A DNA stretch of 64,000 nucleotides, from positions 1 through 64,000 of the forward strand of contig NZ_ATDP01000101.1 of the NCBI RefSeq assembly GCF_000445105.1, in the 5' to 3' direction. Below, piece after piece: positions 58,532 through 60,586 of the stretch (position 1 is the stretch's first letter; every line of letters begins with the position of its first letter). Source of the stretch: Sphingobium lactosutens DS20. GTDB taxonomy: Bacteria; Pseudomonadota; Alphaproteobacteria; Sphingomonadales; Sphingomonadaceae. Both the position numbers and the translations under genes were made by a program. The notes under the pieces were generated by a model. That model was given only the letters and a program-made list of their open reading frames with translations, had not been told where the DNA came from and ran no database searches.

Positions 58532-60025
58532 ATGGACAAGCCGCGTCAGGGCTTTGCCGGGCTGTGGAACATCAGCTTCGGGTTTTTCGGCATCCAGATC
58601 GGCTTTGCCCTGCAAAATGCCAATATGAGCCGCGTCTTCCAGTCACTGGGGTCCAGCATCGATGATCTGTCCGCTTTGTGGGTCGCCGCGCCACTGACAG
58701 GCCTGCTGGTGCAGCCGGTGATCGGCCACCTGTCGGACCGCACCTGGTTGGGAAGACTGGGGCGGCGGCGGCCCTATTTTCTGGCCGGCGCGATTTTGGC
58801 CGCAATCGCGCTGCTGGCGATGCCGCAAAGCCACGGCTTGATGATGGCCGCCCTTCTGCTGTGGATGCTGGACGCCAGCCTCAATATCTCGATGGAGCCA
58901 TTTCGCGCCTTTGTCGGCGACATGCTGCGCAAGGACCAGCATGTCGCGGGTTATGCGGTGCAGACCGCGTTCATCGGCGCCGGCGCGGTGGTGGGGTCGC
59001 TTTTCCCCTATGCGCTCGATCATCTGGGCGTTTCCAATGTCGCGGCGGCGGGTGAGGTGCCAGACACGGTGCGCTACAGCTTCTGGGCGGGGGGTGCGGC
59101 GCTGTTCGGCGCTGTGCTCTGGACCGTCCTGACGACGCGCGAATACACCCCCGACCAATTGCGTGGCTTTGACGGCGGGGCCGATGTGCCTGCCGCCCCC
59201 GATCTGGCCGGACGCAGCATAGCCCCCTGCTGGGCCTGGGTCGGCGCGGGGCTGATGATCGCCATGCTGGTCTATGCGTGGGGGATGGAGAAGGAAGTCT
59301 ATCTGCTCGCCGCGCTGCTGGCCGGCTATGGCGTTGCGAGCATGGCCGCGATAGCGCTGGCTCGCGCCGGGCGCGCGGACACGATGCTGGCGCATATCGT
59401 GGGTGACGTTTCCGCCATGCCGCCGATCATGCGGCGGCTGGCGGTCATCCAGTTTTTCAGCTGGTCGGCCCTGTTCATCATGTGGATCCATACCACCCCG
59501 GTCGTTGCCCAATATATGTTCGGGTCCGCTGATCCGGCGAGCAGCGCCTATCAGGCCGGCGGCAACTGGGTAGGTGTCCTGTTTTCCGTCTATAATGGCG
59601 TGGCGGCGGTGGCGGCGCTGACGCTGCTGCCCTGGGTCGCTCGGCGCATCGGCCAGGCCCGGACGCATGCGCTGTGCCTGACCGCTGGCGCTGCCGGCTT
59701 CGCGAGCTTCCTGTTCGTGCGCGATCCCCATTGGCTGCTGCTGAGCGAAGTGGGCATCGGCATCGCCTGGGCGTCCATTCTGGCCATGCCCTATGCCATG
59801 CTGGCGTCCAGCCTGCCCGCGGCCAAGATCGGCATCTATATGGGCCTGTTCAACATCTTCGTCGTCTTGCCCCAGCTGCTCGTCGCGACGGTGATGGGGT
59901 CGATCATGAAGGCCTTTTTCCCCGGCGCGCCGATCTGGACGATGGCGTTTGCTGCGGTCACGTTATTGGTCGCGGCGGCTGCGTCATTGCGAGTCGGAAC
60001 AGAGCGGACAGCGCGAATCGGGTGA
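58532..60025 (+). CDS. MFS sugar transporter (SLC45/sucrose-maltose transporter-like)
   Basis: A 497-residue 12-helix inner-membrane protein. The first loop GHLSDRTWLGRLGRRRPYFLAGAI gives motif A with the long RxGRR/RRP form typical of plant SUC and bacterial SLC45-type sugar:proton symporters; the N-terminus GLWNISFGFFGIQIGFALQNANMSRVFQSLG is also typical of that group. It is divergent from the GH127 gene, so it probably imports the released sugar. The start ATG at 58532 follows tandem AAGGGA repeats; the longer open frame upstream has no support. Confidence 0.87.
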   Translation: MDKPRQGFAGLWNISFGFFGIQIGFALQNANMSRVFQSLGSSIDDLSALWVAAPLTGLLVQPVIGHLSDRTWLGRLGRRRPYFLAGAILAAIALLAMPQSHGLMMAALLLWMLDASLNISMEPFRAFVGDMLRKDQHVAGYAVQTAFIGAGAVVGSLFPYALDHLGVSNVAAAGEVPDTVRYSFWAGGAALFGAVLWTVLTTREYTPDQLRGFDGGADVPAAPDLAGRSIAPCWAWVGAGLMIAMLVYAWGMEKEVYLLAALLAGYGVASMAAIALARAGRADTMLAHIVGDVSAMPPIMRRLAVIQFFSWSALFIMWIHTTPVVAQYMFGSADPASSAYQAGGNWVGVLFSVYNGVAAVAALTLLPWVARRIGQARTHALCLTAGAAGFASFLFVRDPHWLLLSEVGIGIAWASILAMPYAMLASSLPAAKIGIYMGLFNIFVVLPQLLVATVMGSIMKAFFPGAPIWTMAFAAVTLLVAAAASLRVGTERTARIG

Positions 60026-60105
60026 GGCTGGCGAAAAGGCATGAGGCGTTTTCGCTACGGAAAGCGTTGCATTTTGCCACGATTGCACATTTTGCAACCG
60101 CTCAC

Positions 60106-60139
60106 ATGACTTTCGCACTTGCGATGAGAATAATTCTAT
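60106..60139 (+). promoter_or_regulatory. Promoter with overlapping Fur-box-like dyad
   Basis: ATGACT (60106-60111) and AATAAT (60129-60134) match -35 and -10 hexamers (4/6 and 5/6) at the ideal 17-base spacing. Over the -10 lies TGAGAAT-A-ATTCTAT (60125-60139), which has the 7-1-7 form of Fur boxes and differs from a perfect TGAGAATnATTCTCA at two positions. A repressor bound here would block the promoter. The region is unusually AT-rich. Confidence 0.5.
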
Positions 60140-60140
60140 C

Positions 60141-60215
60141 GCAAAACAAACCTGCCTTTCAGGCATCCTCTCCTAAAAACTTTCACGGGCTGGTCTTCGG
60201 ATCGGCCCTTTTTTT
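60141..60215 (+). ncRNA. Candidate small RNA, about 75 nt, probably iron-controlled
   Basis: Starting at the predicted start near 60141, the RNA would have a small stem CCTG-CAGG (60151-60163), an unpaired stretch CATCCTCTCCT (60164-60174) that contains CUCCU, the complement of the AGGAG ribosome site, a U/A-rich linker, and a strong terminator hairpin. No open reading frame with a ribosome site is seen in it. Fur-box, promoter and terminator are spaced as in RyhB/PrrF-type RNAs, but the sequence is not one I recognise. Function, including a block on iron-protein mRNAs, is inference. Confidence 0.45.
60187..60215 (+). terminator. Rho-independent terminator
   Basis: A 9-pair stem (GGGCTGGTC at 60187-60195 with GATCGGCCC at 60200-60208, two G-T pairs) closed by a TTCG tetraloop and followed by seven T. 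It is the clearest terminator of the window; its distance from the MFS stop (about 160 bases) makes a separate transcript the more likely client. Confidence 0.88.
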
Positions 60216-60586
60216 ACAGAGGCTTAGGGGGGTGCGAGCTATCAGCGGCGTTTGCCGTCCGATCGTTCGCCATGATGCGACAAGGGACAGATTAACTGAT
60301 TGATCCGCAGCGCATCCTGCGCGCCTGACGCGAACAGCGCGCAAAGCCAGTCCAGAAACCGTGCCACCAACAGCATGATCCACTCCACCAATCTTCTTTT
60401 GCGGCTATGTTATCATATGGCTGGCTGATGATAAGACATTGGGCATGGGGTGACGCAAATGATACGGCGTGGTACGGATAAGGGTTGGCCTTGCGCGCGC
60501 AAGCCTCGGTGGACCGCATCTATGTTGACGAGCCGTCCCCGCCAGCCAAGCCTGTTCTGCCTGGCCGGATAACGAACCGATGATCC
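60216..60586. other. Gene-poor intergenic region between the small RNA and the RND outer-membrane gene
   Basis: Apart from the possible 44-residue frame no coding sequence is supported. It contains an AT-rich patch at about 60397-60445 with TATGATAAC-type hexamers on the minus strand, likely a promoter for that frame. Nothing else, including no tRNA or repeat, was recognised. Confidence 0.5.
60242..60376 (-). CDS. Possible 44-residue small membrane-type protein
   Basis: A short frame starts at ATG 60376 after GGTGGAG at 6-base spacing and encodes 44 residues with a hydrophobic N-terminus (MLLVARFLDWLCALFASG) and a polar tail. It lies in the otherwise gene-free 60216-60586 region. I know no family for it. 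A TATGAT hexamer stands upstream. It could equally be noise; the ribosome site is the main support. Confidence 0.3.
   Translation of the reverse strand: MLLVARFLDWLCALFASGAQDALRINQLICPLSHHGERSDGKRR

Follow-up and report, generated by a model that had tools for sequence, protein, structure and literature searches.

What kind of transcription unit lies at positions 60106-60215 of the window (the entire stretch of 64,000 nucleotides of Sphingobium lactosutens DS20 DNA analysed here), and which signals control it? A sequence-only reading of this segment had proposed a Fur-controlled, RyhB-like small RNA. Our analysis leads to a different answer, to which we assign a probability of about 0.78: the window gene is one of seven alpha-r8 siblings with a shared promoter of their own, encodes a trans-acting RNA of about 62 nt, and is most likely activated by a LysR-type protein. 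This result corrects the iron story and ties the locus to an RNA family of known action.

Identity of the RNA gene

A scan of the whole window against the covariance models of Rfam yielded a sole match above the gathering score: positions 60147-60223 scored 45.1 bits with RF00519 (suhB/mmgR, alpha-r8), whose curated cut-off is 41. The elements expected of an alpha-r8 RNA are all found on the forward strand. They comprise a 5' hairpin (GCCUUUCAGGC; 60154-60164), an unpaired pyrimidine core with UCCUCUCC that is complementary to AGGAG-type ribosome sites (60163-60174), and an intrinsic terminator (60187-60215) with a stem at 60187-60208 followed by seven T. The predicted fold of 60141-60215 (-21.8 kcal/mol; z -3.72) leaves UCUCCU unpaired; the terminator and the exposed loop described in the earlier reading are both present. 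Among 177 distinct RNAs, the pairs of the terminator stem are preserved despite base changes, while the presence of the hairpin in this set is partly given by construction since the hairpin was used to find the copies. By count alone, terminator-like sites show no excess (3, where shuffles average 2.0). Counted from the hairpin through the T-run, 208 copies have a median length of 62.5; a start near 60154, which we deduce from the promoter columns and the published length of SuhB (61 nt), would give an RNA of 62 nt (60154-60215).

By sequence and fold, the window RNA is thus a genuine small RNA gene of a known family. An open frame of 209 amino acids (59674-60303) spans the region, and we take it as the shadow of the MFS gene. 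Three lines of sequence evidence, namely the Rfam match, DNA matches in 94 of 94 genomes of the genus (the own genome included) and a conserved promoter dedicated to the gene, support an independent small RNA with a core directed against ribosome sites, as had been proposed, and contradict the view that the transcript is no more than the 3' end of the MFS mRNA. One family member, SuhB, has been published from a sphingomonad (PMC6563040).

Sibling copies in the own genome and in relatives

Six places in the own genome exceed the RF00519 cut-off, and a seventh copy (C81; 34.3 bits) lies under it. The 20 bases GCCTTTCAGGCATCCTCTCC are identical across these seven copies, which have the hairpin, letter for letter, and the UCCUCUCC core in common. 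Such a number is not odd, as several genomes of the genus have 5-8 matches; in the family at large, 114 of 149 genomes carry a DNA match. Copies were collected by a core pattern, so that divergent ones (e.g., L262) were missed. The 28 distinct related copies derive from 29 loci, at which the stretch examined contains both MFS and efflux genes in 18 cases, one of them in seven and neither in four; the neighbor proteins of the nearest relative are about 98% identical to those of the window copy. Tandem pairs of alpha-r8 siblings occur within one stretch in several family genomes (L025, L028, L033, L035, L038, L049). The own assembly (G000) is listed with 7.77% contamination, so that a foreign origin of one sibling is conceivable in principle.

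The core of the window copy reads AUCCUCUCC and not UUUCCUCCCU, the 10-base core of the Caulobacter family members. We treat AUCCUCUCC as a core variant because the score of the covariance model exceeds the cut-off. One might instead suppose that the sphingomonad siblings are a family apart, whose resemblance to RF00519 is limited to hairpin, pyrimidine core and terminator. Besides the divergent core, a weaker own locus (C72:57298-57375, L014; 37.1 bits, under the cut-off) speaks for this notion, because its more classical core reads UCUCCUCCCU; that locus is perhaps the older alpha-r8 gene. Yet six own copies surpass the curated cut-off, hairpin, core and terminator follow each other in the same order, and many siblings bear PhaR-type operators on the -10 region as does mmgR of Sinorhizobium meliloti (see below), which makes a mere look-alike unlikely.

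Promoter elements and transcription start

The sequence-only reading had placed a well-spaced promoter at 60106-60134 (ATGACT-17-AATAAT) with a transcript from 60141. These hexamers are present (9 of 12 matches), and two promoter-like sites occur in 2.5 kb versus a shuffle mean of 0.4, but the placement fails: among the window copy and its 28 related copies, the columns of the proposed -35 and -10 are variable (34-66% for the commonest base), whereas all 29 copies have TTGC at 60119-60122 and A at 60143. This difference suggests that a start near 60154 is more likely than one at 60141.

A profile of 149 distinct copies, aligned on the GCC of the hairpin, contains three fixed elements: a TTGCA-N5-TGCAA dyad centered at -64 (60083-60097), which is a putative LysR-type activator site; TTCGCANTTGC over the -35 (-42 to -32), conserved to 92-99% per base except N; and CANAAA at -12 to -7, where 99% of the copies have A at -11. 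In the window, the conserved box reads TTCGCACTTGC (60112-60122, forward strand) and holds the start of the -35 (TTGCGA; 60119-60124), and the -10 reads CAAAAC (60142-60147, forward strand). The gene's own promoter and terminator proved conserved in relatives; the hexamer pair initially proposed did not. The sequence TCGCANTTG is found in 77 of 94 family copies and in 108 of 114 genus-and-own copies, compared with 4 of 12150 shuffles.

The spacer between -35 and -10 has a weak general excess of dyads (16%, versus 7% in shuffles), and a search of the window for a longer palindrome gave 0 matches. The own sibling on C82 (L003) possesses a different spacer dyad, GCGATGGT-n6-ACCATCGC, kept in the nearest relative (L130) and eroded in others; it is possibly an operator for another regulator. 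Upstream of the -64 dyad, an element resembling CTACGGAAAGCGTTGCAT is seen in many related copies (about 60049-60075 in the window; L054-L082). We found no account of a shared alpha-r8 promoter in sphingomonads in a literature search that does not extend to the likeliest sources of one, Garcia-Romero 2018 and Lagares 2016.

The Fur-like dyad in the spacer

Between the -35 and -10 elements of the window copy, in the variable spacer, lies the dyad TGAGAATAATTCTAT (60125-60139), two mismatches away from TGAGAATNATTCTCA. It was the foundation of the iron hypothesis, according to which Fur bound at this site represses the RNA under iron-replete conditions and the RNA has an iron-sparing role in the manner of RyhB; in a weaker form, a single strain has recently put an ordinary alpha-r8 sibling under Fur. 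Consensus searches lend it some credit: matches with two mismatches occur at eight places in the 5.35 Mb of the own genome and at none in the backwards control, and, from a reading of the open frames, two of the other places are followed by TonB-receptor-like genes and one by an Rrf2-like gene. Some of these places are situated inside apparent reading frames and not before iron genes (C52:1573, C82:27495, C107:313830), so that a match of this kind is in itself weak evidence. Anchoring the search for Fur boxes on hemP gave a result in 0 of 61 genomes.

We scored the copies with a matrix built from 28 genus words, which were hand-picked among the matches listed with poorer ones excluded, making the matrix stricter. 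With it, the window site reaches 15.3 bits as against 23.3-30.7 for the words from which the matrix was built. The 28 related copies score at most 8.1 bits, with 2.9 for the nearest relative, and in a scan of 208 copies, preceded by one of 108, none besides the window copy rises above 10.0. For the window copy taken alone, the chance of such a score is about 8 in 10,000 (16 of 20800 shuffles), but it was the site that drew attention to this copy, and over 208 copies chance alone would yield 0.16 such matches. The dyad on the promoter is thus real as a string of letters but neither conserved nor far from chance expectation; we rejected conserved Fur control after these consensus searches (own genome, genus) and matrix scans. 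Fur or RyhB-like control of the window RNA is not supported, and we found nothing pointing to a RyhB-like iron role for it. In Caulobacter, one study reports no sRNA in the Fur regulon and places the iron-responsive RusT under NtrYX (PMC11005374). Strain-specific control of the window copy by Fur is possible, not likely, and we consider the iron hypothesis as a whole improbable.

PhaR-type operators among the siblings

PhaR, a repressor responsive to the storage polymer PHB, is reported to bind a palindrome in the mmgR promoter of S. meliloti (PMC12542648) that sits between its -35 and -10 (PMC8401924). We built a matrix from 12 published sites (PMC12542648), of which 11 come from promoters marked 'Efficient' in the source and one from exoY, where the mark is cut off; the matrix excludes two further exoH sites as well as all sites rated weak or not evaluated. 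With this matrix, 31 of 94 family copies score ≥8 at one register. Since part of the score stems from the -10 common to all copies, the association of the half-sites is the fairer evidence: among the 94 family copies, 32 have both, two the left only, 15 the right only and 45 neither. Since related copies are not independent, Fisher values computed for these associations come out too strong. The motif holds in the genus, as 29 of 30 of its phasin loci possess a site scoring ≥15 near the gene start (0.3% in shuffles), and 25 have two.

Thirty-one words taken by hand from the phasin-locus sites furnished a second matrix. Scores ≥8 were then obtained for three of seven own copies (two near the usual register), 37 of 94 family copies (34) and 16 of 79 other genus copies (11), with 1.7% in shuffles; none of the 28 related copies scored as high. 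YGCRNYGCR is present at -24 to -8 in 46 of the 59 collection matches listed, a raw count in which many entries are one gene in related species. The window copy has no such operator on its -10 (score -2.8). Many siblings thus bear a PhaR-type operator on the -10, and the window copy and its 28 relatives are without it; PhaR may bind the former. The own genome contains phaR, and so do 144 of 149 family genomes, leaving co-occurrence with little power; the copies from two phaR-less genomes scored 5.8 (L215) and -8.6 (L256) at the register, with 9.5 elsewhere in L256.

The -64 dyad and its candidate activator

The pattern TTGCA-N5-TGCAA-N{15,25}-TCGCANTTG matches the own genome five times, in every case before an alpha-r8 copy (backwards control 0), and is absent in its exact form from two of the seven own copies. 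Allowing at most one mismatch, the dyad is found in 70 of 94 family copies and in 4 of 4700 shuffles. A scan of a public genome collection for this module returned at least 118 stretches, of which 80 were named and the remaining 38 counted without names. By title, 42 of the 80 named stretches among the matches listed are from Sphingomonadales; the RNA follows the module in 41 of these, and the 42nd stops inside the start of the RNA. It follows in none of the 38 named stretches from other organisms among the matches listed. In the RNA-bearing matches listed, the spacing is 16 bases in 59 of 59, and the module lies exactly 72 bases before the RNA in 58 of 59. Among the matches listed, the module is found before an alpha-r8 RNA only in sphingomonads, an observation that is new here.

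A LysR-type gene stands head-to-head with the RNA, starting 100-230 bases upstream, in 18 of 35 distinct family copies and 26 of 59 distinct named copies. The own genome has this arrangement at one of eight places (C94:102862, protein P0001) and the 28 related copies have it at none; control of the window copy would consequently be exerted in trans. The LysR neighbor is not universal, since a MarR-family gene takes its place in 26 of the 59 named copies (e.g., L393, L396, L404). One Sphingomonadales copy of the LysR protein encoded beside sister copies contains HTH_1 and LysR_substrate domains, and its best NCBIfam model is GcvA (NF008352) at 190.1, below the cut-off of 288; the IlvY model scores 36.9.

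In Escherichia coli, GcvA is described as activating the divergent small RNA gene gcvB (PMC1557403), where its 15-bp 5-n5-5 repeats are centered at -65 and -43 (PMC5002191). The operator O1 of another LysR protein, IlvY, reads TTGCAAaaaTTGCAA, which fits the -64 dyad letter for letter. The dyad looks like a LysR-type site because it combines the length and place of the GcvA site at gcvB with the letters of the IlvY operator. We infer that the GcvA-like neighbor is the best candidate for its binder, alongside which an IlvY-like protein encoded elsewhere is conceivable. NtrX was also considered and set aside, as no NtrX motif was found in the available parts of the cited literature.

Core and candidate targets

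The earlier reading had noted that the exposed UCUCCU is complementary to the AGGAGA of katE. That sequence is present before the katE start, but the predicted duplex of the RNA with katE, the iron gene covered by the prediction, is weak (-9.1 kcal/mol). The target pattern TAGGAGAGGN{2,10}ATG occurs at four places versus 14 in the backwards control, and duplexes predicted within the window are no better than those of 20 shuffled RNAs (best -21.8; mean -21.4), so that neither the pattern search nor the duplex prediction in the window disclosed a target.

A working model and its relation to known systems

Taking the alpha-r8 assignment as our preferred reading, we envisage that the window RNA is transcribed from its own promoter as a molecule of about 62 nt that would end at the intrinsic terminator. 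By analogy with the studied members, which act through anti-ribosome-site pairing with Hfq according to the reports on SisA (PMC12559287) and SuhB (PMC6563040), it would use Hfq, its UCCUCUCC core would pair with purine-rich ribosome sites, and this pairing would lower translation of several mRNAs. The promoter, with its 15-bp dyad at -64 and the conserved box at -35, is common to the sphingomonad siblings; the likeliest protein to bind the dyad is a LysR-type activator encoded head-to-head with another sibling. The siblings differ in spacer and -10. More tentatively, one GcvA-like LysR protein might activate all alpha-r8 siblings of a given sphingomonad through the -64 dyad, with the spacer as a repressor slot that is occupied by PhaR on many of them and, in this strain, perhaps by Fur on the window copy. 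If so, several nutrient signals would be summed into one pool of near-identical RNAs, and a GcvA/GcvB-like switch would be distributed among about seven genes.

Both the module common to the siblings and their division by presence or absence of a PhaR-type site deserve further study. Should the promoter model prove right, a LysR-type activator and PhaR would become testable regulators of a family whose Caulobacter sibling promoters reportedly share nothing (PMC12559287), and the model could help to explain why, in a pollutant-degrading sphingomonad, SuhB tracks PHB as well as growth rate (PMC6563040).

Among the known systems, SuhB of Sphingopyxis granuli TFA resembles the window RNA, by description, in its sphingomonad host, its length of about 61 nt and its family name; it is reported to repress through a 5' UTR in an Hfq-dependent fashion, and the account presents one gene (PMC6563040), in contrast to the seven copies found here. 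MmgR of S. meliloti likewise belongs to RF00519 and shares the placement of its PhaR-type operator with many siblings of the window RNA, but it is described as a single-copy RNA of 77 nt (PMC8401924, PMC12542648), and the window copy lacks this operator. Caulobacter crescentus has multiple siblings as well (SisA-D), and SisA represses many mRNAs via its anti-Shine-Dalgarno core; the upstream sequences of SisA-D are reported to have no common motif (PMC12559287), whereas a fixed module precedes the sphingomonad siblings. RyhB and RusT are small trans-acting RNAs too; RyhB is controlled by Fur, for which the window RNA has no conserved site, and RusT answers to NtrYX. The GcvA/gcvB pair of E. 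coli offers a parallel in gene arrangement, with divergent LysR and small RNA genes and a 15-bp repeat at nearly the same distance, but the GcvA half-sites read ATTAG/CTAAT instead of TTGCA/TGCAA, the sphingomonad protein stays under the GcvA cut-off, and gcvB and the alpha-r8 RNAs are unrelated as far as known.
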